From Cryptosporangium arvum DSM 44712 (lineage in GTDB: Bacteria > Actinomycetota > Actinomycetes > Mycobacteriales > Cryptosporangiaceae): a DNA stretch of 64,000 nucleotides. Of the stretch, positions 25,278-56,977 are shown one piece after another. Every line of letters begins with the position of its first letter. Position 1 is the first letter of the stretch. The position numbers and the translations under genes were made by a program. Where the stretch lies: NCBI RefSeq assembly GCF_000585375.1, contig NZ_KK073874.1, positions 3,286,001-3,350,000 on the forward strand, given 5' to 3'. The notes beneath the pieces were generated by a model. The model did not search any database. It was not told where the DNA came from and saw only the letters and a program-made list of their open reading frames with translations.

Positions 25278-26111
25278 TCATGGCGCGCTGGCTCCGAGAT
25301 CGTTGAGGGCCGCGATCGTTACGTCCCAGCAGATCTGGACGGTGTCGCCGTCCGGCCAGTCGTTGTTGGCCCATTGCTGTCTGGCGTGAACGTAGTTGCG
25401 GAAGCCGCGTAGGCGTCCGGAGAACTCCTGCGCGTCTTTCTGTAACCAGCCCTTCCGGTGGGCGTGGCTGATGAGCTGCGCGAGGCTCGGCTCGCCTGGT
25501 GTTCCGTCGCGCCGTCGGGGACACAGGCGGTCTAGTCCGTCTGGGTCGCGGGCCGCGATCACCTCGTACAGAAGCCCCTCCAGGACGCTGCCGAGCATGA
25601 CGATCGCGGCGATCGGGCTGCCGTACTCCCGGCAGGTCGCTGCCTCGCTCAGCCGGTCGTTGAGCACCCGTCGCTTGATCGGGTCGTCAACCAGCAGGTC
25701 GAGCTCGGCGGTGAGCACGACGGGAGCGGTCTCGGCCGCTGCGACCAGCCGCGGGGTGATTTCGAAGACACGAGGTCGCCCGCCCTCGTAGCCGACTTTC
25801 AGTCCATCGAGCGCGAGGCACTTGTTCAACGCGTCGCGAATGGTTCCCGCGGCGTCGGGGTCGCCTGGGTACTCCCGCGGATCGCAGAGTCGGCAGAGAG
25901 CTCGGTCGATCGCGGCGGGGTCGTCGGCCCGACCCTCCAGACACCCGACGACCCAGGACACCTTGGGCGACCCGTCGTAGTCGGGCGGCTGTTCCCAGTT
26001 GGCGTGCCGGAAGAACCGGGCCAGCTGCCAGCCGGCCCGTTCATAGGGGCCCTCGATGTCGCAGATGATCTCAGCGACCGCGCGCACGGTATTTGGGTCG
26101 AGTCGGCTCAC
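25278..26111 (-). CDS. HEPN-like protein coupled to the DUF4011 helicase
   Basis: The GTG at 26111 overlaps the helicase stop (GTGA) and gives 277 aa starting V-SRLDPNTVRAVAEIICDIEG; the longer frame to 26459 is a shadow of the helicase. The N-terminal half (FFRHANWEQPPDYDG, DAAGTIRDALNKCL) is reminiscent of proteins found beside abortive-infection genes. The C-terminal half, IAAIVMLGSVLEGLLYEVIA...LRGFRNYVHARQQW, looks like a HEPN four-helix domain; RGFRNYVH could supply the Arg/His pair of HEPN RNases, though the spacing is not canonical. Its tight coupling suggests it acts with the helicase, perhaps as an RNase effector. Family assignment is tentative. Confidence 0.6.
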   Translation of the reverse strand: MSRLDPNTVRAVAEIICDIEGPYERAGWQLARFFRHANWEQPPDYDGSPKVSWVVGCLEGRADDPAAIDRALCRLCDPREYPGDPDAAGTIRDALNKCLALDGLKVGYEGGRPRVFEITPRLVAAAETAPVVLTAELDLLVDDPIKRRVLNDRLSEAATCREYGSPIAAIVMLGSVLEGLLYEVIAARDPDGLDRLCPRRRDGTPGEPSLAQLISHAHRKGWLQKDAQEFSGRLRGFRNYVHARQQWANNDWPDGDTVQICWDVTIAALNDLGASAP

Positions 26112-30106: not shown

Positions 30107-30434
30107 CAAACTCTCTCCGCCCACCGAAAATGATCACCGGAGCCACAATGCTCAGGATTGAACGCTTCAGAATCAAGAAGAACAGCTGCAACGTCAAGGC
30201 GAATTCGCCGATTTACGGCCGACGCGCGGGCTACCCGTTTGGGCGGCAGGAGTCGGTACTTTCGGGTTGATCGGCTTCTGGTTCGTCACTTCAGCCCCAA
30301 CTGTCCCATGTAGAACCCACTGTTTGTTGCTGCGCAGAGGTTCGTTATCTTCGGCCTGTGTTCGTGTTGTTACTAAGCTGGCGCCACGGTTCACGCAGAT
30401 AGGCGTTCGAAGACACGAGGAGTGACCGGCGGTC
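30107..30434. promoter_or_regulatory. Divergent intergenic region between helicase and kinase units
   Basis: About 330 bases of visibly lower GC than its surroundings, between the - strand helicase (start 30106) and the + strand kinase (start 30435). It must hold promoters for both units. On the - strand there is a TTGACG -35-like hexamer near 30190-30200, but its -10 partner is poor. On the + strand TTATCT near 30345 is a possible -10. The 91-codon frame 30194-30469 is a chance frame. Shared, divergent control would fit joint function of the two units. Confidence 0.4.
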
Positions 30435-31550
30435 ATGGGTGAGGCCTTCGATCGGGTGGGTCGATACACGATCGCTCAGGCGCTCGGCTCCGGTGGGATG
30501 GGCGAGGTCTACCTGGGCTATTCGCCGGCCGGCGATCCGGTCGCGGTCAAGCTGATCCGCGAGGACTGCCTCAACACGCTGGTGCGTGCCCGGTTCGAGA
30601 AGGAAGCATTGATCGCGCGGACCGTAGTGGGTACCAACCGCGTCGCGCGATTCCTGGACGCGGAGCCGCTGGCCGACCGTCCCTGGTTGGCGATGGAGTA
30701 CATCCCTGGCGCGACGCTCCAGGCCTGGGTGGACGCCAACGGGCCGTTACCGGACGTATTGGTCGCCAGCCTCGGGGCCTTACTGGCCGAAGGCCTCGCC
30801 GCCGTACACGCTGCCGAACTGCTGCATCGGGACTTGAAGCCGCAGAACATCATCCTGGGTGACTACGGTCCGGTCATCATCGACTTCGGCTTGGCGGCGT
30901 TCACCGACGCCGGGCTGGGGTCACTGTCTCGCCGCGGCATGATTGTCGGCACGGTCCGTTGCATGCCGCCCGAGCAGGCCGAAGGTAACCCGCAGGTGAC
31001 GACCGCCGCCGACGTCTATGCGCTGGGCACCGTCCTGCTGTACGCGGCCACGGGGCACTACCCGTATGACGGGCCGACCTGGCAGTCGATCGTCCTCCAA
31101 GTCGCCAACCCTGCCCTCGAGCCCGATCTCACCGGCCTCCCCGGCGCGCTCCGGCCGCTGATCACCGCGATGTTCGCGCACGAGGCGACCGACCGCCCGA
31201 CCCTGGACACGGTGACCAGCACCTGCGCCGACCTGCTGCGGCTGGCCGACGTGCATCCGGTCGTAGCACGACGCGCGCTGATCGACCGGACGACGGCCCC
31301 TTCCTCCCCCCGGGTGGTGAGCACCCTGACCCTGTCGATCGAGGATGCGCTCTCCGATCTGGCCGGCGGCTCTGCCGACGAGGGATTCCGGCTCGACCAG
31401 GAGGAGACACCGGCCTCCTCGACGGCCAGCGACGCAGCCGAGAGCCCTAAGCAGGCGTCGGATCACGAGAGACCGGCGCCGAGGTCGTCGCCCCAGGCGA
31501 GGATCGCCGCGCAACTGCGTGACGCCTACGCCGTCGGCGCCCCGTTCTGA
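30435..31550 (+). CDS. Soluble Ser/Thr protein kinase
   Basis: A 371-aa kinase with a full Hanks motif set: Gly-rich loop GSGGMGEVY (about 18-26), catalytic Lys39 in VAVK, HRDLKPQN (131-138), DFG (150-152), an activation segment ending GTVRCMPPEQAEG, and DVYALGTVL. The kinase ends near residue 265. The remaining ~105 residues are low-complexity Ser/Ala/Glu (ETPASSTASDAAESPKQAS) and end with ARIAAQLRDAYAVGAPF. There is no membrane helix and no PASTA or WD repeat, unlike most actinobacterial kinases, so it is cytoplasmic. It is the first gene of the helicase/methylase operon, 35 bases before the SNF2 gene. Likely role: sensing or switching of the system, by analogy with the kinases in Pgl and Mokosh. 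Confidence 0.9.
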   Translation: MGEAFDRVGRYTIAQALGSGGMGEVYLGYSPAGDPVAVKLIREDCLNTLVRARFEKEALIARTVVGTNRVARFLDAEPLADRPWLAMEYIPGATLQAWVDANGPLPDVLVASLGALLAEGLAAVHAAELLHRDLKPQNIILGDYGPVIIDFGLAAFTDAGLGSLSRRGMIVGTVRCMPPEQAEGNPQVTTAADVYALGTVLLYAATGHYPYDGPTWQSIVLQVANPALEPDLTGLPGALRPLITAMFAHEATDRPTLDTVTSTCADLLRLADVHPVVARRALIDRTTAPSSPRVVSTLTLSIEDALSDLAGGSADEGFRLDQEETPASSTASDAAESPKQASDHERPAPRSSPQARIAAQLRDAYAVGAPF

Positions 31551-31585
31551 TCCGAACCACCGCCGAGCCAGCCACAGGAGCGCGT

Positions 31586-34489
31586 GTGACAGCCCCGACC
31601 GACGCCGAACCGTCGTCGTTCCCCCCGGGCGCCCAGGTCGAGATCCGAGACGAGATCTGGCTGGTCCGCAAGGTGACCGTGACCGAGCACGACGGTGCGA
31701 TGCTCGAGGTCACCGGTGTCTCTCCCTTCGTGCGGGATGTCGACGCCGTCTTCTACGCCTCCCTGGACACCATCACTCCGCTCGACCCCCGGAAGACCAT
31801 CCTGGTCCCGGACGACTCGCCCTATCACCGCCGCGCCCGTCTGTATCTGGAGGCGGTGATCCGGAAGTCGTTCCTCCCGCAAACCGAGACCGGACTGGCG
31901 CTGGCCGGGGCATTCCTCGCCGACTACCAGGTACACCAGGTCCGGCCGGCGCAACTGGCGCTCTCGATGCGTAATCCGCAACCCCGGCTGTTGATCGCCG
32001 ACGTCGTCGGGTTGGGCAAGACGCTGGAGATCGGGATCCTGCTCGCCGAGCTGATCCGGCGCGGCCGGGGTGAGCGCATCCTGGTTGTGACCCCCGCGCC
32101 GGTGCTCGAACAGTTCCAGCGCGAGTTGTGGACCCGGTTCGGTATCCCGCTGGTACGGCTGGACTCCACCGGCATCCAGCGGGTCCAGCAAGAGATCCCG
32201 TTGGGCCGTAATCCGTTCGCCTACTTCAAGCGCGTGATCGTCTCGGTCGACACGCTGAAGAACAGCAAGCTCTACGGCCACCACCTGGAGCACACCGACT
32301 GGGATGCCGTCGTGATCGACGAGTCCCACAACCTGATCAACCGCGGCTCGCACCGCAACGAGCTGGCCCAGACGCTCGCGCCCCGCACCGACGCGCTGAT
32401 CCTCGCCTCGGCCACCCCGCACAACGGCGACGGCCGGTCCTTCGCCGAGCTGATCCGTCTGCTCGACCCGGCCGCGATCGCCGATCCCGCCAAGTACGAC
32501 GTCAGCGACCTCGAACACCTCTACCTACGCCGCTCGAAGAACACACCCGAGGTGCGAGACGCGCTGCGGGGTGCTTGGGCCGACCGGGGGCCGTCGTTGC
32601 CGGTCCGGGCAGCCGCGACACCGGCCGAGGAGGCGGTGTTCGACGCGCTGGCCGCCGAGTGGCTACCCGCCGATGGAAAGCCCTCGGTCAGCGCTGCGCG
32701 GCTCTTCCCGTACACCCTGTTCAAGGCATTCCTCTCGTCCCACAAGGCGCTGTTGGAGACGGTCGGCCAGCGGGAACAGACGCTGAAAGACCGAACGGAC
32801 GCCGAGGCCGAGCGCACCGCTCTGGCCGAGCTCCGCCAGGTCGCGACGAAGATCGGCGACGGTGACTCCGCCAAGCTGGCCGCGCTCGTCGCCGAGCTGC
32901 GTGATCTCGGGGTGCGGCCCGGTTCGGACACCCGCGTCGTGGTGTTCTCCGAGCGCACCGCGACACTCAACTGGCTGGCCGACGTCGTGCCGCTCGCGCT
33001 CGGCTTCCCGGCCGACAGTGCCGAGGACGAGAAGCGCCCATGGCTGAAATACCGCGGTGTGGTCGAGGTGATGCACGGCGACGTCACGAACGACCAGGAA
33101 CAGATGAAGGTCGTCGAGCGGTTCGGCTTGCGCGACGCGCCCGTGCGGCTCCTGTTCACCGGCGACGTCGCCTCCGAGGGCGTCAACCTGCACCAGCAGT
33201 GCCACTTGCTCGTCCACTACGACCTGCCGTGGTCGTTGATTCGGATCGAGCAGCGCAACGGCCGGATCGACCGGTACGGGCAGAAGTACCCGCCGCAGTT
33301 CCGGGCCATGATCCTCACCAGCACTGTGCAATGGCGCCCCCGCGCGGCCCCGATGCTGGACCAGCCCGAACCCGGGTACCGGCCGTTCGATGACCGGCTG
33401 GTCGGAGAGATCCTGCTGGCCCGGGAGGCCGAGGCGCATCGGATCGAAGGATCGGCCGACGCCGTCTCCGGTCTGTACCGGCCCCAGGACGAGGAGGACC
33501 GGCTGACCCGCGACCTGATCGCCGGGCAGACCGTTCCGGAGTCGCTGGCCGCCTCCGCCCAGACCGCCGGAGGCTTCCTCGCCGGCTTGCTCGGCCGCCA
33601 GGCCGGCGCCACGCCGCCCAATAGCGAGGTGCCGCGCGCCGTGGTCCCCGCGCTGTTCAACCACACCGAGGACTACGTCCACACCGCGCTGCGCCAGGTC
33701 TTCCACGACGCGCCCGAAGGCGCCCTGTCGCTCCGCTACGACGAAGACGGCGCGATTTCCCTCACCCCACCGCCCGATCTCGTCTACCGGCTACGCGCAC
33801 TGCCGGCCAGTTACCTCTCCGAACAGCGGATCCTCGGCACCGCAGACGAACCGGGCCGGATGAGCGTGACGTTCTCCCGGAAGCTCGCCGGGCATCGGCT
33901 GGACGCCGCCCGTGAATCGTCGGACACGATGTGGCCCTCGGTGGTCTACCTGACCGACATCCATCCCGTGCTCGACTGGCTCACCGACAAGGTCCTGATC
34001 GAGTTCGGCCGCCACCAAGCGCCGGTGCTCGGGGCCGCCGTGAGCACCCCGACCTTCCTGGTCCAGGGCATCTACTCCAATGCGCTGGGCCGACCCACCG
34101 TGGTGGAGTGGATGGCCGTTGACGGGCTGCCCGGAACGCCGCGGGTGACATCGATGACCGAGGCGCTGGCCGCCGCCGGCGTTGGCGCCGACATGCCCGG
34201 CCGGCGCACGCCGCACGACCTGCCGGGCCTCCAGTCGCTGGTGCCATCCGCGATCGACGCCGCCACCGCGCACCTGACCGCTCGACGGGCCGCTTACGAC
34301 GCCGAGATCGACACCGCTCTCGCGCCGTACCGGCGGCGGCTGGACGCCTGGCGGCAGACCGCGCCGCCAGGAACCACCAAGTCCCGACACGCCGAGGCGG
34401 TCAACCGCCGCGGCGACCTGGTCCGTGGGCTCGAGACCGTTGGCGCCCCGATGCTGCGGCTGCTGGCCGTCCTGGAAGGCGACGCATGA
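31586..34489 (+). CDS. SNF2-type helicase, DrmD-like
   Basis: A 967-aa SF2 ATPase from a GTG at 31586 behind AGGAG. The N-terminal ~100 residues form a small beta-rich domain (PGAQVEIRDEIWLVRKVTV). The motor has Walker A VVGLGKTLE (about 140-149), DESH (245-248), SATPHNG, then the C-lobe with FTGDVASEGVNL and QRNGRIDRYGQ. After the motor, about 300 residues include a glycine-poor C-terminal domain not seen in chromatin-type SNF2 proteins. This gross layout resembles DrmD of class 1 DISARM and its relatives that precede adenine methylases. It overlaps the methylase gene by ATGA (34486-34489). Likely role: translocation on DNA to find or process unmodified invading DNA. Confidence 0.85.
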   Translation: MTAPTDAEPSSFPPGAQVEIRDEIWLVRKVTVTEHDGAMLEVTGVSPFVRDVDAVFYASLDTITPLDPRKTILVPDDSPYHRRARLYLEAVIRKSFLPQTETGLALAGAFLADYQVHQVRPAQLALSMRNPQPRLLIADVVGLGKTLEIGILLAELIRRGRGERILVVTPAPVLEQFQRELWTRFGIPLVRLDSTGIQRVQQEIPLGRNPFAYFKRVIVSVDTLKNSKLYGHHLEHTDWDAVVIDESHNLINRGSHRNELAQTLAPRTDALILASATPHNGDGRSFAELIRLLDPAAIADPAKYDVSDLEHLYLRRSKNTPEVRDALRGAWADRGPSLPVRAAATPAEEAVFDALAAEWLPADGKPSVSAARLFPYTLFKAFLSSHKALLETVGQREQTLKDRTDAEAERTALAELRQVATKIGDGDSAKLAALVAELRDLGVRPGSDTRVVVFSERTATLNWLADVVPLALGFPADSAEDEKRPWLKYRGVVEVMHGDVTNDQEQMKVVERFGLRDAPVRLLFTGDVASEGVNLHQQCHLLVHYDLPWSLIRIEQRNGRIDRYGQKYPPQFRAMILTSTVQWRPRAAPMLDQPEPGYRPFDDRLVGEILLAREAEAHRIEGSADAVSGLYRPQDEEDRLTRDLIAGQTVPESLAASAQTAGGFLAGLLGRQAGATPPNSEVPRAVVPALFNHTEDYVHTALRQVFHDAPEGALSLRYDEDGAISLTPPPDLVYRLRALPASYLSEQRILGTADEPGRMSVTFSRKLAGHRLDAARESSDTMWPSVVYLTDIHPVLDWLTDKVLIEFGRHQAPVLGAAVSTPTFLVQGIYSNALGRPTVVEWMAVDGLPGTPRVTSMTEALAAAGVGADMPGRRTPHDLPGLQSLVPSAIDAATAHLTARRAAYDAEIDTALAPYRRRLDAWRQTAPPGTTKSRHAEAVNRRGDLVRGLETVGAPMLRLLAVLEGDA

Positions 34490-37400
34490 GCACGTTCGAC
34501 GCCATCGGCAACCGCGGCGAGTACTTCGCCGCGCATTACTACGCCGAACGGCTTCCGCTCGACCTCCGCAAAGGGATCTTCGGCCGGTGGACCGACCGGG
34601 AGACCGACGAACTGGAGCAGCGGCCGACTACCCGCGAGCAGGTTCGCGCACTACGTGGCGAGTACTTCACCGACCCCGTTCGGGGCTTTTTCGTCGAGCA
34701 CGCCCGGCTGGCCGCAGAGAGTCTTCCCGCCCCGGACGGCGTTGAAGGCAGGCCCGTCGCTGACCAGGAGTGGGCCAAGCGTTTGACCGCCTGGCATCAC
34801 ACCGTCCTGCGCCACTTCGGCTATCCCGTCGACCGCCCCGATCAGGTGACCGTCCATCGAGCCGGACGCGAGCACACCCTGCGGGTCGCCTTCGCCGGCG
34901 ACGGGATCCTCGCGGTCGACTGCGGCTGGGCGGTCGACGCCGACGCGGCCCTGGACGCCCACGGCCCGGACCAGCTGCTCGGCCCGGTCCGGATCTCGGC
35001 AGGCGAGTCGTACGCCACCGGCTCGGCGCTGGCCACCTGGTTGTTCAACAGCCAGATTGTCTGGCCGAACCAAACCGAACCGGGCTCGCCACCCCGCTTC
35101 GTGCTGCTGCTCGTCGGTGGTGTCCTGGTGTTGGCCGATCGTCACTGCTGGGGAGAGGGCCGTTTCCTCACCGCCAACCTCGACGGTGCGCTCCAACGCT
35201 ACGACCGCCGCCAGAACGGTGAGCTCGCCACGATCGCCGCGCTGTTCAGCTACGAGATGCTCCGCACCGGGGCCAACGGCGAAGACCCGGCGATCGACGC
35301 GCTGCTGAAGACGTCCACCGAGAACGCAGTGGGCGTCGACGGCGACCTGCGTCAGGGCCTGCAGCGGTCGGTGGAACTGATCGCGAACGAGATCCTCGAC
35401 CGGCTCATCGAGGCCGGCGTCGAACCCGCGCAGGTGGCCCGGCCGGACAAGCCGCTCGGTCGGGAACTCCGCGACGAGGCACTGCGCTACCTCTACCGAA
35501 TCCTGTTCCTGCTCTTCGCCGAGGCCCGTCCGGAGCTGGGCATCCTCCCCTCTGACGACGGTAGTTACGAGGCCGGCTACTCACTGGCCCGGCTACGGGA
35601 GTTGGTCGCTCGCGACGAAGAGCTCATCGAGGGGAACACCGCGCGCGGCTTCCACCTCTACGAGTCGCTGAACGTGCTGTTCTGTAAGGTCAATAAGGGC
35701 CACCGCGCCTACGGCACCGAAGCGGGCGACTACCAGCCCGGCGACGACGAGGCCACACGCAAGGCCAAGAAGGAACGCCGGAGCGAGGACCGCGGCCTCC
35801 GGTTCGAACCGCTGCGGTCAGCACTGTTCGAGCCGACCGCGACCCGCTTGATCGGTTGTGAGGTCCCCGACCCACGGTCCGACGACATACCTGCTCCCCG
35901 GTTGGACCTGCGACTGCGCAACGGCACCCTGCACCGAGTGCTGCGGCTGCTGACCATGAAGCGGCCCCGCGGCAAGGAGCGCGGCGGTTTCATCTCCTAC
36001 CGCAACCTCGGCATCAACCAGCTCGGCGCGGTCTACGAAGGCCTGATGTCCTACACCGGCTTCCTCGCCACCGAGGAGCTCTACGAGGTCGCCAAGGGTG
36101 GCAACCCGAAAGACGGTTCCTGGATGGTGCCGTCATCCCAGATCGGCCAGTTCACCGACGACAGCGTGTTCGTCCGCTACGACCAGGCCGACGAACGGCG
36201 CGGTCTGCGCGGCTGGAAGCGGCACCCGCGCGGCTCGTTCGTCTACCGCCTGGCCGGCCGGGAACGCCAGGTCTCCGCCTCCTACTACACCCCGGAATCG
36301 CTGACCAAACTCACCGTCGAGCTCGCCCTCAAGCACCGACTCGACCAGGACCGCGACGCCAACGGCGCGACGGTCGAGACTCGCGCCGCCGAACTGTTGC
36401 AGTACCGGATCTGTGAGCCCGCGCTCGGCTCCGGTGCGTTCCTCAACGAGGCGATCAACCAGCTGGCCAGTGAGTACCTACGGCGACGGCAGAACGAGAC
36501 CGGCAAGACCGTGCCCACCGCCGACGCACTCACCGAGTTGCAGCGAGTCAAGGCCTACATCGCGCTGCACAACTCCTACGGCGTCGACCTCAACGCCACC
36601 GCCGTCGAGCTGGCCGAGGTATCGCTGTGGCTCAACACCATGCACCCCGGGATGCGCGCCCCCTGGTTCGGCCTGCACCTGCGGCGCGGCAATTCCCTGA
36701 TCGGCGCCCGGCGGGCGGTCTACACCGGCAGCGATGCGGCCGGCCGCAACTGGCTCGCGTCCAAGAACCCGCTGCCCCCGACCGAACTGCCCTTCCGCGC
36801 CGCCGTTGAGAACACCGACGCCGACGCGATCCAGCCGTTGCCGGTGGGCGCGATCCACCAGTTCCTCTTGCCGGCTACCGGCTGGGGCACCGTTGCCGGA
36901 GAGTCCGAGGCCAAGGCGCTGGCGCCGGAGGCCGCAGCGCGGCTGGGCCGTTGGCGCAAGGGCATCCTCAAGCCGCCGAAGACTACGGGCGGTCAGCGGT
37001 CGGAGCTCGCCCGGTTGCAGGGGACCGCCCGACGGGTGGAGTTCCTCTGGGACCTGGTGGTCGAACGGATGCGGATCTCGGAACGCGAGATCGCCCGCCG
37101 GATCGACGTCTGGGGCGCGAACCCCGACGACCACGAGTACGTCTTCATACAGCGTCCGGAGCACCCGGTCCCGAAGGAGAAGGTCTATAAAGATCTGTTC
37201 GAGAAGGTCGGCACGCCGTACTGGCGGCTCAAGACCCTGATGGACGCCTGGTGCGCGCTCTGGTTCTGGCCGGTGGACCAGGCCGCTCTGTTGGACGGTG
37301 ACGATCCGGCCTATGAGCAGACGCCGGTGACCCCGGCGCAGTTGAGCGAGCTGCTGGGGGTCGGCCGAGGGGAGCAGGTGGCACTGTTCTCCCGCGATGT

Positions 37401-39855: not shown

Positions 39856-42800
39856 GGCCGACCTTGGAGGCCAACGGCCTCACCGCGAATCTGTTGCAGT
39901 ACCTCTCCACGACCTACGCGCTCTCCGACGAGGGGGCCCGCCGGGCACTGGAGGCATTCCTCGGCGACACCGACGCCGGCATGTTCCGTGGCCCGTTCCT
40001 GCGGATCCGCACGCCGTTCCAACCAGCGCCCGACAACTGGCGCGACGGGCTGGACTGGCCCGACCGGGGCTTCCTGCCGCCCGGGTTCACCCCGTACGCG
40101 CACCAGGCGGCGGCGTTCCACCGGCTCTCGTCCCGCCACCACCCGCCGCTGCCGACGCTCGTGACCACCGGCACCGGCTCGGGTAAGACAGAGGCGTTCC
40201 TGCTGCCGATCCTGGACCACTGCCGCCGCGAGCGGGCCCTCGGCCGCGCGGGCGTCAAGGCCGTGCTGCTGTACCCGATGAACGCGCTGGCCAGTGACCA
40301 GGCCGACCGACTCAACCACTACCTCCAACAGGACGCGTTCTCGCAGGTCACCGCGGGCCTGTTCATCGGCGACACACCGGACACCCCCTACCCGCGGGTG
40401 ATGACCCGTCGGTCGGAGATCCGGAACAACCCACCGGATCTGCTGGTCACCAACTTCAAAATGCTCGATCTGCTGCTGCATCGGGCCGACGACGCACCGT
40501 TGTGGGCCGATGCGGATCTGCGGTACGTGGTGGTCGACGAGTTCCACGCCTACGACGGGGCCCAGGGCACCGACGTGGCCATGTTGCTGCGCCGGCTGGC
40601 GGCCCGGGTGGGGGCGGCCACGGCGGAGATGCCGCTCGGCGGGATCTGCCCCGTCGCGACGTCCGCGACCCTGGCGTCGCCCACAGAGGCGGATACGCCC
40701 GGGGACGCGCCCGACCTGCTGGCGGTCGCCGGGCAGATCTTCGGCACGCGGTTCACCGCGGACGCCGTCATCAGCGAGAACCGCCGATCGGTCGAGGAGT
40801 TCATCCCGCAGCACTCGCTGGCCGCCGAGCTGCCGTTGCCGGATCCGGAGACGCTGGCCGCGCTGCCGGATCCCGGCCGCAACGACGAAGCCATGGCCAG
40901 GCTGTCCGAGGTCGTCACTGGTCAGCCGGAACTCACCCCCGAGCAGCTCGGCGCGGTGCTGCGAACCCATGTGCTGACCCGTGCCTTGCTGACCGCGCTC
41001 GCGGACGGCGTCCGTGACCCGGCGCAGATCTTGGACGTGCTCTGGCGGCACAACGCCTACTCGTGGGGCCGCGCGGTCACCGAGCGCCCCCAGCAGGCGG
41101 CCCTCGCGTTGGCCCGGTTCGTCGCGCTCTTGTCGGTAGCCCGCGATCCGGACGCCGACCCGGCGCACCCACGTCCGTTGGTCCACGTCGAGGTACATCA
41201 GTGGGCCCGGTCCGTGACCCGGCTTCTGCGTGGCATTCTGCCGTGGCCGGAGGCGGAGTTCCGCTGGGACGCCGCTGACCCGGCCGGAGCCACGGCTGTC
41301 GACGGTGACCGGGCCGCGCCGGTCACCACTGCCACCGGTGGGCAGCGGGCGAACGTGTTCCTGCCCGCCGTCTACTGCCGCGAATGTGGCCGGTCGGGGT
41401 GGGCGGCGTTCTCCCCGGAGAGCGACGACGCGGCGCTACGTCTGGATCCGGTGCTCATCCGCCGCGCGTCCACCAGTAGGGACAAGATGCGGGTCCGCGC
41501 GCTGATCGCGGCGACCGACGCCGAAGCGCGTGAAGGTGCCGGATCGGGCCCGATGGCCGTGAGTAATCGAGCCTGGGGCGGCACCGGGCGACCGGCGGCC
41601 GCCGGTCTCGGCGGCGTCCTCATGGTGCTTGACGGAGCAGGCGGACGCTTGCGTCCGCCACAGCCGAGCACCGATTACCACCCGGAGACCGGTGAGCCGA
41701 CGTTGACCGCCCGGGACTCGGCATTCGTCCTGGTCATTCTCGGGCAGACGGCGAACACGGCAGCGACCGGCGACTGGTGTCCGGCGTGCGGGGAGCGCAA
41801 CGCGATCCGCTACCTGGGTACTCGGACGGCAGCGCTGGCCGCGGCGGCGCTGACGCAGCTGTTCACCGGCGGCGAGCTGGACGACAAGCAGAACGAACGC
41901 AAGACGTTGATGTTCAGCGACTCGGTGCAGGACGCCGCCCACCGGGCCGGTTTCGTCGCCAACCGGTCGTACGTGTTCTCGCTCCGGGCGCTGCTGGTGG
42001 CGCACCTGTCGGAGAGCCGAGACACCGCGCTCAACGACCTGATCGCCGACGTGGTGGCCGCGACGACCGACCTACAGACGTTGGCCGCCGTCGTCCCACC
42101 CGACCTGCACGACCGCCCCGGGGTGGACGCTCTTTTGGCAGGCGAGAACGGCGGTACCGCCGGGGTGTGGCAGACGATCGGCGAGCGATTGGCCTTCGCC
42201 GCGCTGATGGAGTTCGGGTTCCGGTCCCGGCAGGGCCGCACGTTGGAACTCACCCGCACCGCCGCAGCGCAGGTGTCGATCCCGAACAAGGATGCGGCAA
42301 TCGCGCTGGTCCGGCAGGCGTACCTCGCGGGTACCGAGTTACCGGCTGACGCCCCGGAAGACGCCCGCTACCTGGGCTTTCTCCGAATCTTCCTGGAACG
42401 GATGCGGTGGCGGGGCGCGGTGCGCCACCGGTGGCTGACCCGGTATGCCCTCGACGCGGGGGTCAGCCGGTATTTCGTCTGGGGCAGGCGCCCGGCCGGG
42501 ATGCCGGCATTCCCCGCCTTCGTGGCAGCGCCGGTGTTCCTGCTCGACCGCCCCCGGCCGCGGAGCGAGTTCGACTTCGCCACCGGCCGGCTGTCGTGGC
42601 ACGAACGATGGGCGCAACGCAGCTTCGGCCTCACCAGGGACGCCGCGGCGAAATTCTGGGAGCGGTTGCTCCCGGCCCTGGCCTCCGACGGTCTGCTCGC
42701 CACCCGGGTCACGCGGGACGGACAGACCCGGCTCTACGGACTGCAACCCGGGGCGATCCTGGTTCGCGGCTTGACCGACGACGAGGTCAACGTCGCCGCG

Positions 42801-45800
42801 GTGCGTTGCCCGGTGTGCGCGTGGGAGCAAACGGTTCACCCCGCGCTGCTCGACCAGTGGCGGGGTCAGCCCTGCCCGTCCTACCGGTGTGCACGGGGTC
42901 GGCTGGAGGCCGCGAATCGGCCCGCCGCGAACGGAAGTGACCCGCACCGGCGCGACCGGGACTATCGCGACGACTACTACCGGCGGTTGTATCGGGGAGC
43001 AGGCACCTACCAGATCGTCACCGCCGAACACACCGGGATGCTCACCCGGCCACAGCGGGAACGGGTGGAGAAGGCGTTCAAGGCCGGTGGGCGGTTCACC
43101 GATCCGAACGTCTTGTCGTGCACCCCGACGCTGGAGCTGGGGATCGACATCGGTGACTTGTCCGCTATCGTGCTGGCCTCGTTGCCGCCGAGCCCGGCTC
43201 ACTACGCCCAGCGCGTCGGCCGGGCCGGGCGGCGGACCGGCAACGCCTACGTCCTCACCGTCCTCGGTCACCGTCAGCGCGATCTGTACTTCCTCGACCG
43301 CCCGGTCGACATGATCGCCGGTCGGATCATTCCGCCTGGCTGTTACCTCTCCGCAGTGGAGATCCTGCGCCGTCAGTACCTGGCGCACCTGCTCGACCTG
43401 GCCGCTGCTGGTCGGCTGCCTGCAGCCGACGGTGGTACGGAGCCACTGCGTCCGTTGCCACGGACCGCGCCGGCGCTGTTCGGCGATTCCGGCTACCTGG
43501 TGGACCTCGTTGCCACAGCGCTGGCCCACGCCGAGGAGTTGCTCGGTGGGTTCCTCGCGCTGTTCCCGGGGGACACGATCGAGCCGCGTGCCGTCGATGA
43601 GCTGCGGGCGTTCGCCACCGCGGGGCTGCGCAGCGCGGTGGATCGGGCCGTTCGGGAGTGGCGGGAGCGGCTAGCCATCCTCGCGGAACGGCTCTCGGCG
43701 ATCACGGCCACCTCTGCGGCGCTCAACCCCGACGACCCGGAGCAGGCGCAGCAACGCGCGGAGCTGGACGGGGAACGCCGGGGAATTGGCGCTCTGCTGG
43801 CCCGGGCCGGTGAGAAGGATGCTCCCGGAGCGCTGGTGGAGTTGGGTCTGCTGCCGAACTACGCGTTGGTAGACACCCGGACGGTGCTCGAGGCGACGCT
43901 CTACGCAGAACGGAGGGCCGAGTCCGACGAAACCGAGCGTTCCAGCGCCGAGGTCCGGTATCGCACCGAGCTGCGTGAGTACGACCGGCCCCGCCGGCTC
44001 GCATTGACCGAGCTGGCCCCGGGGAACACCTTCTACGTCAACGGTTACCGGCACGAGGTCACCGGCCTGGAGATCGGCACCCGTGACCGGCCCGGCTGGC
44101 AGGTGTGGCGGTGCTGTCCGGAGTGCGGCTACGTCCGGACCACCGAGGCCGAGAGCGACCGGACGCCGTGCCCGCGCTGCCGCAGCGGACGCATCGCCGA
44201 TGACGGTTCCTGTCTGCACCGAGTGGTGGAGCCGAGCCGAGTCACCGCCCGAGATCGGCGGGAAGACGCGCGGATCCGCGACGACCGAGACGACCGAGAC
44301 CCTCGGTTCTACGAGACGGTCACCGCGGTGGACATCCCGCAGGATACCGTCGAGCTGTCCTGGCGCCACGAGCGGCGTGTCTTCGGCATCGACTTCACCC
44401 GTGATGCCACGATCCGGACGCTCAACCTCGGTCCGGCCCGGTTCGACGTGCCCGCCCGCGACCTGTTCGCCGGTCAGCTGACCCGGGTCAACCCGTTCAC
44501 GGTCTGCACCGGCTGCGGCGCGGCCGGCGCGGACGGGGCACCGGTGTTCGACCAGGACTCCGATGCGCTGCTCACCTCCGGCCCGGACGATCCGCGGCTG
44601 CGCCACCACCGGCCGTGGTGTCCGCTCCGCCAGGGACGCCGGGACGATACCGTTCAGCTTCCGGTGCTGCTGGCCCACCAGCTCAAAACCGAGGCTCTGC
44701 GGATCCTGCTGCCAGCGGCGACGGTGCTGGTCGAGGAGCGAGTGCACTCGTTCCGGGCGGCGTTGCGTCTCGGCGTCGACCGGCACTTCGGCGGCGACCC
44801 GGACCATCTGGACACAGCAATCGCCACCATGCCGGACCAGAACAGCGGCGAGCGTCGCTCGTACCTGGTGCTCTACGACACGCTCCCCGGTGGCACCGGC
44901 TACCTCCATCGGCTGACCGATCCGGTGGCGTTCAAGGCCACCCTGGCGGCCGCCCGGGCCGTGCTCGCCGCGTGCCCGTGCGCGGCCGAAGGGCGCCGGG
45001 CCTGCCATCGCTGCCTGCACCGCTACACGCCCGACAACCTTCAGCAGCACGCCTCCCGGCGGACCGCGCTGGAACTTATCGACGGGCTGCTCACCGGCCC
45101 GGACGGCAGCGACGGCTGGGACATCTCGGACGTCGGCGGCACCGACGACATCGGACTCGATCAGCAAGTCGAGTCCGACTTGGAAGCACGGTTCCTGGCC
45201 CTGCTGCGGACCTGGTCCACCGTGACCACCGACACGGTCCTGGAGGAGAACAGCGCGACCAGCGGACACCTGCGATTCACCGGCGGCGCGGACGTCGTCC
45301 ACTGGCGGCTCACCGCCCAGCAGCCGCTGGACAACACGCGGCCGGACTTCAGTTTCCACCGCGTCGACGGACCGCCCTGCGCGATCCAGGTCTACCTGGA
45401 CGGCCGGCGCTTCCACGCCTCGACCGACAACAACCGCCTGGCCCGCGACGCGGTCCGCCGGACGCGGCTGCGCTCGACGGGCAACCTGGTTTTCCAGCTC
45501 ACCTGGGACGACCTGGACCTGTTCGAGGAACGCGCCGACCGCGCCCAACCGGTGTGGCCGCCGTATCTGACCGGTGCGCAGGACGCGGCGAAGGCGGCCT
45601 ATGCCGCCTACGAAGGTGATCGGTCCGACTTCGCCGACACCGTCCTCACCAATCCGGTCGAAACTCTGCTGGCCTTTCTCCGCGATCCTGACCTCACGCG
45701 GTGGACCAGACGGGCCCGCGCCCTTGTCGCCGGGGCGGCCGCCATGCCCGGTACGGTGCACGTCGGGACCGCCGGCGGCTCCCAGGAAGTCTCGGGCCTG

Positions 45801-46622
45801 CTTCGCCAGGCGCTGTGGGAGTGCATCCCGCCAAGCGACCGACCGGATGACCGTCCGACGACGGACGTCGCGCAAGTCGGCGGCTCCGTACACCTGTTTC
45901 GCGCCACCGACACCGCGGAGCTTCCGCTGGTGCTGGTGGTCGACGAGAGGTCGCCGGAGGCGTGGACCGCGTTAGCCGTCGTCAACGATCTGAACGCCGA
46001 CTTGGACAGCATCACCGCGAAGCACACCTGGCGCGCGTGGTTGTACTGGTCGAACCTGATCCAGTTCCTGTCGTTGCAGGGACGGGCCGACGGGGTGCAG
46101 CTGACCGCGAGCCAGACGCTGGAGTATCCGGTGGAGCAACTGGCGATCGCCGGTGGTGTCGGCGAGCTCAGTTCGATGAAGGGCAGCGCCTTGGTGCCCT
46201 ACGTGCCGGCGCCCGCGGAACCAGTGAACGACGTGCCCGCCGGACCGACGTCGGGCTCCGCGCGCGACCCCGGCTGGGACGTCGAGATCCTGCCCTACCT
46301 CGACGAGCAGGACAGCGCCCTGGCCAGACTGGCCAGGACCCTTGCCGAACGAGGCAAGCGCGTCCCGGTGTTCGGCTACGAACTGGGTCAGAGCGGCTGG
46401 CCGGCTGACTTCGCGTGGTCCGATTCGGGTGTACGGATCGCGGTGGTGACCGCCCCGCACGATGCGGACGACGACGAAGCGCGCCGTCGTGACGCTGCCT
46501 ATGCCGAAGCGGGATGGACCGTGCGGACCGCCGCTGACTGGAACCTCCACCTGGAATCACTGCTGGCCGTGTTGCCGGATGCGGCCGAACCCACGGAAGC
46601 CGTTGAGGAGACACACGCATGA
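39852..46622 (+). CDS. Giant DEAD/DEAH helicase with DUF1998 and C-terminal nuclease-like region
   Basis: I prefer GTG 39852, which overlaps the methylase stop (GTGA), over the ATG at 39801 that lies inside it; this gives about 2256 aa. Walker A TTGTGSGKT (105-113), DEFH in VVDEFHAYDG (about 228-231) and CPVATSATLAS form the first motor lobe. A long Cys-bearing insert (CRECGRSGW, CPACGERN, CPVCAWEQ) leads to the second lobe with RVGRAGRRTG. The DUF1998 region follows, with CCPECGY, CPRCRSG, LPGGTGYLHRL and CPCAAEGRRACHRC. The last ~480 residues start with a nuclease-like segment (PDFSFHRVDG, AIQVYLDGRRFH, STGNLVFQLTWDDL) and end in a domain found again alone at 57001-58206. It resembles a DrmA plus DrmB fusion or DruE. 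Confidence 0.85.
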   Translation: MRPTLEANGLTANLLQYLSTTYALSDEGARRALEAFLGDTDAGMFRGPFLRIRTPFQPAPDNWRDGLDWPDRGFLPPGFTPYAHQAAAFHRLSSRHHPPLPTLVTTGTGSGKTEAFLLPILDHCRRERALGRAGVKAVLLYPMNALASDQADRLNHYLQQDAFSQVTAGLFIGDTPDTPYPRVMTRRSEIRNNPPDLLVTNFKMLDLLLHRADDAPLWADADLRYVVVDEFHAYDGAQGTDVAMLLRRLAARVGAATAEMPLGGICPVATSATLASPTEADTPGDAPDLLAVAGQIFGTRFTADAVISENRRSVEEFIPQHSLAAELPLPDPETLAALPDPGRNDEAMARLSEVVTGQPELTPEQLGAVLRTHVLTRALLTALADGVRDPAQILDVLWRHNAYSWGRAVTERPQQAALALARFVALLSVARDPDADPAHPRPLVHVEVHQWARSVTRLLRGILPWPEAEFRWDAADPAGATAVDGDRAAPVTTATGGQRANVFLPAVYCRECGRSGWAAFSPESDDAALRLDPVLIRRASTSRDKMRVRALIAATDAEAREGAGSGPMAVSNRAWGGTGRPAAAGLGGVLMVLDGAGGRLRPPQPSTDYHPETGEPTLTARDSAFVLVILGQTANTAATGDWCPACGERNAIRYLGTRTAALAAAALTQLFTGGELDDKQNERKTLMFSDSVQDAAHRAGFVANRSYVFSLRALLVAHLSESRDTALNDLIADVVAATTDLQTLAAVVPPDLHDRPGVDALLAGENGGTAGVWQTIGERLAFAALMEFGFRSRQGRTLELTRTAAAQVSIPNKDAAIALVRQAYLAGTELPADAPEDARYLGFLRIFLERMRWRGAVRHRWLTRYALDAGVSRYFVWGRRPAGMPAFPAFVAAPVFLLDRPRPRSEFDFATGRLSWHERWAQRSFGLTRDAAAKFWERLLPALASDGLLATRVTRDGQTRLYGLQPGAILVRGLTDDEVNVAAVRCPVCAWEQTVHPALLDQWRGQPCPSYRCARGRLEAANRPAANGSDPHRRDRDYRDDYYRRLYRGAGTYQIVTAEHTGMLTRPQRERVEKAFKAGGRFTDPNVLSCTPTLELGIDIGDLSAIVLASLPPSPAHYAQRVGRAGRRTGNAYVLTVLGHRQRDLYFLDRPVDMIAGRIIPPGCYLSAVEILRRQYLAHLLDLAAAGRLPAADGGTEPLRPLPRTAPALFGDSGYLVDLVATALAHAEELLGGFLALFPGDTIEPRAVDELRAFATAGLRSAVDRAVREWRERLAILAERLSAITATSAALNPDDPEQAQQRAELDGERRGIGALLARAGEKDAPGALVELGLLPNYALVDTRTVLEATLYAERRAESDETERSSAEVRYRTELREYDRPRRLALTELAPGNTFYVNGYRHEVTGLEIGTRDRPGWQVWRCCPECGYVRTTEAESDRTPCPRCRSGRIADDGSCLHRVVEPSRVTARDRREDARIRDDRDDRDPRFYETVTAVDIPQDTVELSWRHERRVFGIDFTRDATIRTLNLGPARFDVPARDLFAGQLTRVNPFTVCTGCGAAGADGAPVFDQDSDALLTSGPDDPRLRHHRPWCPLRQGRRDDTVQLPVLLAHQLKTEALRILLPAATVLVEERVHSFRAALRLGVDRHFGGDPDHLDTAIATMPDQNSGERRSYLVLYDTLPGGTGYLHRLTDPVAFKATLAAARAVLAACPCAAEGRRACHRCLHRYTPDNLQQHASRRTALELIDGLLTGPDGSDGWDISDVGGTDDIGLDQQVESDLEARFLALLRTWSTVTTDTVLEENSATSGHLRFTGGADVVHWRLTAQQPLDNTRPDFSFHRVDGPPCAIQVYLDGRRFHASTDNNRLARDAVRRTRLRSTGNLVFQLTWDDLDLFEERADRAQPVWPPYLTGAQDAAKAAYAAYEGDRSDFADTVLTNPVETLLAFLRDPDLTRWTRRARALVAGAAAMPGTVHVGTAGGSQEVSGLLRQALWECIPPSDRPDDRPTTDVAQVGGSVHLFRATDTAELPLVLVVDERSPEAWTALAVVNDLNADLDSITAKHTWRAWLYWSNLIQFLSLQGRADGVQLTASQTLEYPVEQLAIAGGVGELSSMKGSALVPYVPAPAEPVNDVPAGPTSGSARDPGWDVEILPYLDEQDSALARLARTLAERGKRVPVFGYELGQSGWPADFAWSDSGVRIAVVTAPHDADDDEARRRDAAYAEAGWTVRTAADWNLHLESLLAVLPDAAEPTEAVEETHA

Positions 46623-48814
46623 GCGCCCGGTTGAGCCTGTACCAGAAGGCCGAAGAGGAGCTCTACAAGCTCGACTCGTCGGTCAAGGCGAAGTTCTACA
46701 ACTTCTCCCACCAGTTTCGCCAGGATCCGTGGAAGGGATTGAGTCTCAAGGCGCTCAAGGGCGCGCCCAACATCTATTCGGCGCGAATCGGCGCTGACTA
46801 CCGGGCGCTGCTGACCCGAACCGGGATCGATGACAACGGGACGGAAAGCTGGCTGCTCATCGCTGTCCGGCACCGTAGCGCCGTCTATGAACAGCTGTCG
46901 GTGACGGTCAACCGGATCAGCGGTGAGATCGAGTTCGTCGACCTCTCGGTTGTCGGACAGAGCGCGCTGAACCGGGCAGGCATCATGCTGACGCCGGCCA
47001 CGATCGACGACGACGAGGCGTCGGCACCCACGGAGGTACGCCCCCCCGAGGTGGTGGAGCCGGCTGCGGCCCTGCTGGCGGATTGTGACTTCAAGACACT
47101 GCACGACCTCGGCGTGGCCGATTCGCTGATCTCGCTGGCACTGTCGGTCACGAGCAGCGACGAACTCGATGATCTGGTCAAGGACGCGCCTCTGCTCTCG
47201 AAAGACGTCCTGTACGGACTCGCGGCAGGCATGTCGGTCGATGAGGTCAGGGCGGAGATCACCGGCAAGGTCGCGGCGGAAGGTCCCATCGACCCGGACG
47301 ACTTCACCGCTGCACTGGCCCGCACCACCGTCACCTCCGTCGACGACAACGTGCGGAACGTCCTGGAGGAAGGCGACTTCCGCGCGTGGAAGGTCTTCCT
47401 TCATCCCACCCAGCGAGCGCTCGTCGACCGCAAGTACTCCGGGCCGGCACGGGTCAGCGGCGGGCCCGGGACGGGCAAGACCATCGTCGCGCTACACCGG
47501 GTCCGCCATCTCGCCGAGCAATTGCCGGACGGAAGCGACCGGCCGATCCTGCTGACCACGTTCACCAAGAACCTCGCCGCCGACCTGCGAGCCCGGTTGG
47601 CGTCGCTGCTCGACCCCGATGCCCTGGCACGCGTCGACGTGCTCCACATCGACCAGCTCGCGGCCCGGGTGGTGGGAGAGAACGCTGCCCCCGGTCAGGG
47701 CAAGAATCGGGTCGCCGATAGTTTGGTCGTCGACCGGATGCGGGCCCTCCTGGAGGCGTCGGGCGAGCAGCGCTGGGAAGCGGAGTTCCTGGTCGAAGAG
47801 TGGGAGCAGGTCGTCCTCGGCCAGTCGCTCGCCACCCGGTCGGACTACTTTCGGGCTCGGCGTGCCGGGCGGGGACGTCCCCTCAACCGGGCCGAGCGCG
47901 GCGACGTCTGGAAGCTGATCGAGCAGCTCACCGCAACGCTGGACACCGAAGGCGTGGAAACCTGGGGGCAAGCAGCCGATCGGGCGGCCCGGTTCGAGAT
48001 CGAACGAGCCGCAGCCGGCAAGTACCGGTACGACCATGTCGTTGTGGATGAAGCGCAGGATCTGCGCCCCGCGCACTGGAAAATGCTGCGCGCGATGGTC
48101 CCGGCTGGTCCCGACGACCTGTTCCTCACGGGCGACACCCACCAGCGGATCTATGACAATCAGGTCGCGCTGGGCACGGTCGGTGTCCAGATCCGTGGGC
48201 GATCGTCCCGCCTGACGCTCAGTTACCGGACCACCAGGGAGATCCTCACGACGGCGCTGGAGATCATGTCCGGTGAGACGGTCGACGACTTGGACGACGG
48301 AACCGACACCCTGGAGGGATACCGGTCAGTGCTCCACGGCCCCGCGCCAGACCTGCGGGGCTACGCCAGCTGGAACGACGAGCTGCACGGTCTGGTCGAG
48401 ACCGTCCGGTGGTGGCACACGGAGTTCGAGGCTTCGGGTCGTGATCCGCGAGGGCTGGTGGCAGTCTGTGTCCCCGATCATCGGCGGGTGGGTGCGGTAA
48501 TCACCACGCTGACCGGTGATGGTGGGTTCACGTGCGCGGAGCTCACCAAGGACGGCCCGCGTGGTGACGGGGACATCCACGTGGGAACGATGCACCGGTT
48601 CAAGGGGCTGGAGTACCAGCGGCTGGCGATCGTGGGGGTTTCGGACGGGGTCGTGCCACGGGCCGCGATTATTCGGCTACAGGATGAGGATCCGGCGCGG
48701 TATCTGAGGGAGCGGCGGCGTGACCGTGCGCTGTTGTTCATGGCGGCGACGCGGGCGCGCGACGCGTTGGCGGTGAGCTGGCACGACAAGCCGAGCCAGT
48801 TCCTCCCGCACTGA
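46619..48814 (+). CDS. RelE/ParE-like domain fused to UvrD/Rep-type helicase
   Basis: 731 aa, ATGA-coupled to the giant helicase. Residues ~1-110 have the RelE/ParE toxin fold pattern: LYQKAEEELYKLDSSVKAKF, LSLKALKGAPNIYSARI and GADYRALLTRT, ending in an AVRHRSAVYEQLS strand. A ~150-residue linker follows. The SF1A helicase has Walker A GGPGTGKT (about 280), VDEAQD (about 475), TGDTHQRIYDN, LSYRTTREI and the C-terminal GTMHRFKGLEYQRLAI and AATRARDAL. Fusions of a RelE-like domain to UvrD helicases occur in other actinobacteria. Here the domain probably serves in RNA or ribosome binding, or as a regulated nuclease. It is the last gene of the operon, ending at a terminator hairpin. Confidence 0.85.
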   Translation: MSARLSLYQKAEEELYKLDSSVKAKFYNFSHQFRQDPWKGLSLKALKGAPNIYSARIGADYRALLTRTGIDDNGTESWLLIAVRHRSAVYEQLSVTVNRISGEIEFVDLSVVGQSALNRAGIMLTPATIDDDEASAPTEVRPPEVVEPAAALLADCDFKTLHDLGVADSLISLALSVTSSDELDDLVKDAPLLSKDVLYGLAAGMSVDEVRAEITGKVAAEGPIDPDDFTAALARTTVTSVDDNVRNVLEEGDFRAWKVFLHPTQRALVDRKYSGPARVSGGPGTGKTIVALHRVRHLAEQLPDGSDRPILLTTFTKNLAADLRARLASLLDPDALARVDVLHIDQLAARVVGENAAPGQGKNRVADSLVVDRMRALLEASGEQRWEAEFLVEEWEQVVLGQSLATRSDYFRARRAGRGRPLNRAERGDVWKLIEQLTATLDTEGVETWGQAADRAARFEIERAAAGKYRYDHVVVDEAQDLRPAHWKMLRAMVPAGPDDLFLTGDTHQRIYDNQVALGTVGVQIRGRSSRLTLSYRTTREILTTALEIMSGETVDDLDDGTDTLEGYRSVLHGPAPDLRGYASWNDELHGLVETVRWWHTEFEASGRDPRGLVAVCVPDHRRVGAVITTLTGDGGFTCAELTKDGPRGDGDIHVGTMHRFKGLEYQRLAIVGVSDGVVPRAAIIRLQDEDPARYLRERRRDRALLFMAATRARDALAVSWHDKPSQFLPH

Positions 48815-56938: not shown

Positions 56939-56957
56939 CGAACTTCCCCTCCGAAGG

Positions 56958-56977
56958 CGCACGTCACGAAGGTGCGC
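56958..56977. promoter_or_regulatory. Inverted repeat in the divergent promoter region
   Basis: GCGCAC (56958-56963) and GTGCGC (56972-56977) form a perfect 6-bp inverted repeat with an 8-base spacer. It lies between the two divergent starts at 56938 (-) and 57001 (+), just ahead of a TAGAAT -10-like hexamer (56992-56997) for the + gene. A shared operator is likely. The -10 lies so close to the GTG at 57001 that the transcript would be leaderless or would start translation at the ATG at 57055. Confidence 0.45.

Follow-up and report, generated by a model that had tools for sequence, protein, structure and literature searches.

The window analysed in this study is a 64,000-nt stretch of DNA from Cryptosporangium arvum DSM 44712. 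A program-made ORF list places five ORFs, all on the + strand, at positions 30435-48814 of this window. These genes and their features of interest are as follows:

30435..31550, + strand: ArmK (label coined here), 371 aa, soluble Ser/Thr protein kinase (Pkinase, E 9.6e-32)
31506..31547, + strand: ArmK tail motif A-x-x-LR-x-x-YA-x4-F, residues 358-371
31586..34489, + strand: ArmA, 967 aa, SNF2/RapA-type ATPase (E. coli ArmA homology, Pfam SNF2-rel_dom)
34486..39855, + strand: ArmB, 1789 aa, PglX-like N6-adenine methylase (E. coli ArmB homology)
36412..36441, + strand: ArmB motif I region CEPALGSGAF, residues 643-652, columns invariant or nearly so
37789..37800, + strand: ArmB catalytic NPPW, residues 1102-1105, invariant columns
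39852..46622 (alternative GTG 39801), + strand: ArmC, 2256 aa (or 2273), YprA-family helicase with MZB domain and nuclease-like tail
45168..45695, + strand: putative ArmC nuclease-like domain (Vsr / PD-(D/E)xK-like), weak match of a structure model
46619..48814, + strand: ArmD, 731 aa, RelE-like domain fused to UvrD helicase

The kinase and SNF2 genes are spaced by 35 bp, and the following genes overlap by ATGA (ArmA/ArmB, 34486-34489), GTGA (ArmB/ArmC, 39852-39855) and ATGA (ArmC/ArmD, 46619-46622); coordinates and junctions agree with the original prediction of five + strand genes, the last four with such overlaps. The length of about 2256 aa that it gave for the helicase is probably right, since this form, starting at GTG 39852, has the N-terminus VRPTLEANGL, and VRPTL is where several ArmC homologues begin (L128, L185, L202). 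Pfam also recovered the domain families that had been named: Pkinase, SNF2-rel with Helicase_C, an Eco57I-type methylase, DEAD with Helicase_C and MZB (the DUF1998 region), and UvrD. The RelE-like part of ArmD was borne out in part: its N-terminus matches Pfam ParE_like below the cut-off (E 0.019, 15.4 bits against 24.4), and it falls within the alignment to E. coli ArmD. Given that the gene order is conserved in other genomes, an operon arrangement by chance is excluded.

ARMADA was described in 2025 in a preprint (PMC12458937), whose main text gives the type II layout as SNF2, methylase, YprA/DUF1998 helicase and RelE/UvrD, and reports that type II also occurs in actinobacteria. Judging from homology, genes 2-5 almost certainly constitute ARMADA type II, with ArmA, ArmB, ArmC and ArmD in the same strict order as in the E. 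coli locus. ArmA aligns with E. coli ArmA at 33% over residues 11-923 of 967, and RapA structures were found as relatives by sequence. ArmB aligns with its counterpart at 37% (200-933) and 30% (1064-1696), and ArmD at 32% over 17-729 of 731, with UvrD-helicase found by Pfam and GajB models also matching. ArmC aligns at 29% over 50-1905 with 495 bits, compared with 85 bits to E. coli DruE; its assignment to the ARMADA II clade is by bit scores, with no rebuilding of the published YprA tree. According to the same main text (PMC12458937), the E. coli locus is a tested anti-phage locus that functions without a kinase, and deletion of armB abolishes its protection; the methylase is therefore required for defence, beyond any protective role.

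With regard to ArmB, the conservation of the two motifs was read from a 10-row alignment including the E. coli protein. Conservation dips at residues 951-1000 (0.33) and 1451-1500 (0.31); these dips are compatible with what a target-recognition region would show, short of proof. No match to ArmB was found among 50,697 phage records at E <= 1e-20, nor did its profile match the PDB. Residues of the nuclease-like domain of ArmC are invariant between the window protein and that of E. coli. In VIA-align, the model of this tail matched BsoBI (Z 6.2), ngo0050 (Z 6.1) and I-Bth0305I (Z 5.9), all below the tool's safe level; the maximum Z was 6.4, the top row was a mitoribosomal protein and many rows were ubiquitin-conjugating enzymes. 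We take I-Bth0305I and ngo0050 to be of the Vsr-like kind. Foldseek returned no match for the tail at E <= 0.001.

The first gene is the new part of this locus, the other four having already been published. ArmK comprises a kinase domain at about residues 11-260, a flexible linker and a C-terminal helix at 353-366, which in the AlphaFold2 model (mean pLDDT 86) is preceded by a low-confidence stretch corresponding to the linker. None of 91 ArmK copies has a hydrophobic segment after residue 260. The catalytic residues, among them lysine K39 and aspartate D133 in the window kinase, are conserved, with few substitutions, across the 90 readable copies (L160, an overlong ORF, stands outside this count); the lysine after HRD is replaced by T in one copy, and DLG stands for DFG in three. 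Of the 91 copies, 90 carry the tail motif in a loose version and 72 in the strict LR..YA form, compared with an average of 0.085 for shuffled tails, and the motif is also present in a plasmid copy that played no part in its definition. Among 13,729 mechanical ORFs, which include own-genome paralogue ends where the fetched stretch reached them, A-x-x-LR-x-x-YA lies close to the C-terminus in 81, all of them ArmK; this form requires the A three places before LR and captures 80 of the 91 copies. As far as these ORFs extend, the motif is private to ArmK. The window kinase scores a median of 228 bits against other ArmK proteins and at most 146 bits against 24 paralogues of its own genome, drawn from the 44 Pkinase matches there; the most distant ArmK, at 127 bits, falls below the best paralogue. 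The local support of the ArmK group is 92, under 95 (FastTree).

All 74 loci that could be judged have the kinase upstream of ArmA. These derive from the best 80 of 546 ArmB relatives, chosen by similarity to the window ArmB, so the set describes this branch rather than ARMADA II as a whole. Six loci were left out, four in which no ArmA is shown (L136, L174, L193, L194) and two with a short upstream region (L150, L187); in L136 and L193, which belong to this branch, the 10 kb ahead of ArmB holds neither ArmA nor a kinase. Rare joint occurrence of the genes, which would have spoken against the original prediction, is contradicted. The first locus set gave the same picture, with the kinase upstream of ArmA in 17/17 loci of the branch. 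It is absent from 19 ARMADA II loci outside the branch. The Microvirga locus, having only 437 bases upstream, was not counted, and the second locus of G223 (G223b) has no ArmA within the fetched stretch. On the ArmA tree, the presence of the kinase changes once, separating 91 rows with it (one a duplicate, L201 and G215 being identical) from 19 without; the latter include G232, where kinase-like ORFs of 1400 aa (upstream, opposite strand) and 518 aa (downstream) occur in the vicinity. The first copy of G249, an interrupted ORF, is off this tree, and its kinase is still counted.

The kinase tree follows the operon closely. Six ArmA clades require five changes on it, which is the minimum, while 200 shuffles averaged 51, and the two kinases of Streptomyces scabiei each group with the clade of their own operon; for the kinase of G249b, the closest rows by path belong to another ArmA clade. 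All trees were built by FastTree and carry only local support values, and the program gave a warning that long branches meet. A search of 296 genomes matched 31; the fragments G241, G270, G346 and G370 were left out, and G008, G097 and G075 came from another search. With up to six kinase candidates scored per genome, the top 17 kinase matches all adjoin ARMADA genes and none stands alone. On the tree, the link between ArmK and the operon appears as a single origin followed by inheritance with the operon, a co-inheritance that could partly reflect host descent. We conclude with high confidence that ArmK is a standing fifth part of one large actinobacterial ARMADA II branch. The main text of the ARMADA preprint does not contain the word 'kinase' (PMC12458937), and no description of a kinase as an ARMADA part was found in searchable texts, supplements apart, including PMC12458937, PMC13316683, PMC12839542, PMC11090510 and PMC13192584.

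Given that the kinase is a standing part of a large branch, the data suggest that defence is controlled by phosphorylation there. We consider it fairly probable, from the sequences, that this locus represents an ARMADA II subtype that carries a kinase, ArmK, as regulator of the machine. ArmB, with ArmA, would mark host DNA and help to recognise incoming DNA, which ArmC may unwind and cut, and ArmD would process exposed strands or RNA. The original proposal, with self DNA marked by the methylase and the motors acting on unmarked DNA, is plausible. The conserved C-terminal helix on its flexible linker would keep ArmK close to the machine; that ArmK is such a tail-tethered regulator seems to us an evenly balanced proposition. 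On a cue from infection or host state, ArmK would phosphorylate ArmA-D or itself and thereby switch the machine, either licensing attack or restraining it. The fullest version, in which ArmK senses infection or stress, docks on ARMADA via its private helix and gates it by phosphorylation, being obligate, gained once and branch-defining, is tentative. No clear branch-specific insertions or phosphosites were found in ArmA-D; the search yielded three short inserts of poor conservation and 11 scattered positions.

ArmK might instead act in parallel, as a back-up that upon infection phosphorylates host or phage proteins, such as factors of translation or replication, and exerts no control over ArmA-D. 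Its best PADLOC matches, to the PD-T4-6 set of defence kinases that stand alone and to MADS Mad6, agree with such a role, as does the activity of E. coli ARMADA II without a kinase (PMC12458937, main text). We nevertheless regard it as unlikely, since a part of the machine fits the tight co-inheritance better than an independent effector does, and each of the 17 best matches in the 296 genomes has ARMADA genes as neighbours. It is rather improbable that ArmK is a guard gene restraining self-damage by keeping the methylase or helicase-nuclease inactive in uninfected cells: E. coli carries ARMADA II without a kinase (PMC12458937, main text), even if the ArmK gene stands first, ahead of ArmA, and the Streptomyces Pgl system, with a kinase and a methylase, is called a toxin/antitoxin system in the title of PMC4365076. 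A chance neighbour, conceivable in kinase-rich actinomycete genomes such as this one with its 44 Pkinase matches, is rejected as very improbable in view of the 74/74 loci among the best 80 of 546 relatives, the single origin on the ArmA tree, the private tail motif and the bit scores. That all five genes form an undescribed system, a reading favoured by the lack of a single PADLOC-DB 2.0.0 (2023) system for the set, is exceedingly improbable and is rejected, as four of the five correspond to E. coli ARMADA II both in gene content and in gene order. The predicted single defence system is supported; the predicted novelty fails for genes 2-5, whose layout is already published under a named subtype, ARMADA type II, and holds for the kinase, which is undescribed for ARMADA in searchable texts.

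The regulatory reading of ArmK bears on the question of how a system of three motors and one methylase is activated without harm to the host. With its catalytic residues intact and a private C-terminal helix, a kinase present throughout the branch would offer a direct handle on ARMADA control. ArmK can also serve as a marker in annotating this subtype, which PADLOC-DB 2.0.0 splits into PD-T4-6, DISARM, type IIG, Druantia and Gabija pieces, the models matched here being PD-T4-6, DrmD, type IIG, DruE and GajB/NERD-UvrD.

The locus resembles several known systems. It shares with DISARM class 1 a DrmD-like SNF2 ATPase, a DrmMI-like methylase and the DUF1998 helicase family. However, DISARM has a separate DrmA helicase and DrmB (DUF1998), whereas DEAD, Helicase_C and MZB are combined here in a single protein; RelE-UvrD and the kinase are additional, and Pfam found no PLD family, as in the DrmC-type nuclease, in the five proteins. 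Membership of DISARM was rejected on these grounds. The best PADLOC matches of ArmC are DruE models, but it scores with E. coli ArmC, the SNF2, methylase, UvrD and kinase genes are additional, and no PADLOC model of DruA-D, F-H or M matched the five proteins; Druantia was rejected, and a neighbouring 1160-aa protein did not match E. coli DruH by BLASTP or hhalign. As in BREX type 2 / Pgl, a Ser/Thr kinase adjoins a PglX-like methylase. PglW, however, is described as a protein of 1400-1600 aa that combines a nuclease module with tandem kinase modules, compared with 371 aa for ArmK, which reaches 41 bits against the PglW cut-off of 990; PglZ and BrxC were not matched by PADLOC models or Pfam, and BREX type 2 was rejected. 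MADS also has a kinase within a methylation-linked locus, and its Mad6 profile matches the ArmK kinase domain with 118 bits, where the cut-off is 460; no other Mad model was among the matches listed for the five proteins, the partner genes are ARMADA genes, and MADS was likewise rejected. Figure legends on CoCoNuT super-operons name a Ser/Thr kinase and YprA helicases as associated genes, while the set here is ArmABCD and no McrB-like GTPase was matched by PADLOC models or Pfam. ARMADA type II itself shares with this locus the four core proteins, their order, the tight coupling and the actinobacterial occurrence, and differs in the upstream kinase with its private C-terminal helix, which is present here and has no counterpart in the tested E. 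coli locus.

This analysis revealed that four of the five genes in the operon are, judged by sequence, ARMADA type II. The five plus-strand ORFs (30435-48814) were confirmed, as were the predicted overlaps among the last four genes, with the junctions ATGA, GTGA and ATGA; the kinase and SNF2 genes are separated by a gap of 35 bp. Pfam also returned the anticipated domain families: protein kinase, SNF2 ATPase, Eco57I-type methylase, DEAD helicase with MZB (DUF1998), and UvrD helicase. The proteins were compared by BLASTP with those of E. coli ATCC 8739, the locus tested in a 2025 preprint (PMC12458937). The SNF2 protein matched ArmA at 33% over 11-923, the methylase matched ArmB in two blocks at 37% and 30%, and the UvrD protein matched ArmD at 32% over 17-729. 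The helicase matched ArmC at 29% over 50-1905 with 495 bits, against 85 bits to DruE. The order of the core genes is that of the E. coli locus, and the phage defence that ARMADA type II gives E. coli needs all four genes, according to the preprint. The original prediction of an undescribed system thus fails for the four core genes, which match a known system in order and sequence, and stands for the kinase-bearing subtype, of which no description was found in the literature searched. As far as literature searches reach, this subtype is the novelty, the ARMADA core being already known.

With regard to the kinase, which we refer to as ArmK, we read 31 loci from the genome sample and 80 named loci, the best 80 of 546 relatives by ArmB alignment, all titled as Actinomycetes. 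Kinase and SNF2 genes do occur together in other actinobacterial genomes: a same-strand kinase lies upstream of ArmA in 74 of 74 judgeable loci among these best 80 (ArmA in view and at least 1.5 kb upstream; six were not judgeable) and in 17/17 branch loci of the first set, the window included. No such upstream kinase was found in the 14 loci of the second actinobacterial branch, in E. coli, in the Tsukamurella, Aulosira and Cylindrospermopsis plasmid loci, or in G641, which shares the phylum and falls outside the class sample. On the ArmA tree (FastTree), the kinase state changes once, with 91 loci having it and 19 lacking it (local support 99). Judged by genomic distribution, one ARMADA II branch carries the kinase as a regular component. 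The Streptomyces cellulosae plasmid NZ_CP109251.1 (locus L285), typed as mobilizable, carries kinase-bearing ARMADA II; ArmA was matched at 60% or more by 3 of 72,556 plasmid records, all Streptomyces, one of which was looked at. A second, different kinase directly follows ArmD in G097, G249b (overlapping ArmD by 4 bp), L151 and L165; the ArmK tail motif is absent from its readable tails (G097, G249b, L165).

Kinase and operon share their history. The 91 ArmK cluster together on the tree and separate from 24 kinases taken from the window's genome (support 92). Placed on the kinase tree, the six ArmA clades require 5 changes, the fewest possible, whereas 200 shuffles gave 51 on average, and patristic distances correlate at 0.82 (89 loci). 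In Streptomyces scabiei, which carries two of the operons, both kinases fall in the clades of their respective operons. In a search of 296 genomes, the 17 top kinase matches (at least 203.6 bits, 16 genomes) were all found no more than a few kb from ArmB matches; the 18th (199.8 bits) is in a genome without an ArmB match in this search. Even where ArmB is broken over contigs (G346, G370), the kinase lies beside it.

ArmK retains the VAIK lysine in 91/91 copies; the 90 copies readable further on all have HRD, the asparagine of the catalytic loop and the aspartate of DFG. No strongly hydrophobic segment was found C-terminal of the kinase domain in the ArmK copies. A variable linker leads to a C-terminal motif, A-x-x-LR-x-x-YA-x4-[LF], whose strict LR..YA form occurs in 72/91 copies and whose loose form occurs in 90/91 (shuffled tails average 0.085); in 68 of those 90, the protein ends five residues past the motif. 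The fetched loci contain 13,729 mechanical ORFs of 80 aa or longer, and the 81 that finish with the motif are exclusively ArmK, namely 80 of the 91 copies plus the Streptomyces cellulosae plasmid copy, which played no part in defining it. AlphaFold2 placed a helix at 353-366 after a low-confidence linker, and we read the tail as a putative docking peptide. ArmK may be tethered to the ARMADA machine, which it would switch by phosphorylation. Two less likely but live alternatives are a parallel kinase effector and, with slightly lower probability, a role in restraining self-damage.

In ArmB, both NPPW and the block CEPALGSGAF are kept in ten homologues, E. coli among them. By sequence search, ArmC comes closest to the solved structure 9tu7, E. 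coli DruE, and the PDB copy searched contained no closer ArmC chain. A structure model of ArmC's tail (534 aa, mean pLDDT 84) gave no match with Foldseek alone; it could be aligned to BsoBI with Z 6.2, to ngo0050 with Z 6.1 and to I-Bth0305I, a homing endonuclease, with Z 5.9, scores that the tool's note calls weak. A 401-aa plus-strand ORF at 57001-58206 shares 39% identity with the window's ArmC tail (1829-2262), as a detached copy without the stretch holding the nuclease motif; nearly all its other matches in 296 genomes are tails of long ArmC ORFs, and G183 has a short ArmC-tail ORF near an ArmD remnant. An antisense tRNA-Leu call by ARAGORN within armC (43945-44042, minus strand) is probably a false positive.

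The armB-armC spacing exceeds 600 bp in 29 of the 72 kinase-bearing loci where both genes are visible, and in 1/14 of the other set, that one with a broken ArmB ORF. This intra-operon hot spot is seen across L124-L203 and in G215, G224, G347 and G377. Its cargo includes regulators and other defence genes: an XRE/DUF5753 regulator family in 38 of 53 flagged loci, and DUF397, HATPase_c_2, GmrSD_N, AAA_21 ATPases, Beta protein and a caspase-helicase fusion.

The operon is in a defence island, with these neighbours:

14005-18500 and 21546-23945, minus strand: TrwB-, TraG- and TraC-like type IV secretion/conjugation-like ATPases and an NB-ARC-TPR protein
26108-30124, minus strand: DUF4011 - AAA_11/12 - MTES_1575 helicase-nuclease (Pfam), upstream of the operon
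48861-56962, minus strand: Druantia III-like pair, convergent, downstream of the operon
58686-60527, plus strand: GmrSD_N (DUF262-type) protein

The conjugation-like genes and the NB-ARC-TPR gene may belong to an integrated conjugative element that borders the island. The helicase-nuclease best matches anti-phage ProA, with 862 bits against a cut-off of 1500, together with PDC-S37 and Hhe, and is likely another defence gene. GmrSD_N-like genes also lie near several other ARMADA loci, e.g. L126, L136, L146 and L285. The downstream pair consists of a DruE-like helicase (1540 aa), in which no extra nuclease was called, preceded by a 1160-aa protein with no Pfam, PADLOC or NCBIfam match, in which no similarity to E. 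coli DruH was detected. Relatives of this 1160-aa protein adjoin a roughly 50%-identical DruE in 7/7 loci (L277-L283, fetched out of 12 other genomes matched), in one case at a distance of about 4.7 kb. In L282 (G133 contig 35, another actinobacterial genome), ArmC-ArmD of the kinase-less branch is followed directly, on the same strand, by the DruH-like/DruE pair, an arrangement that resembles the known ARMADA-Druantia array of E. coli.

The Tsukamurella tyrosinosolvens plasmid NZ_LR134452.1 (L286) carries kinase-less ARMADA II with ArmC split over two ORFs and a UvrD - helicase - DUF1998 gene trio directly upstream. On the Cylindrospermopsis curvispora plasmid NZ_CP060823.1 (L289), the ARMADA II genes run ArmC-ArmD-ArmA-ArmB and so depart from the "strict order" that PMC12458937 gives. 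Kinases likewise occur in other defence loci, namely PglW in BREX type 2/Pgl, Mad6 in MADS, and those of the CoCoNuT super-operons.
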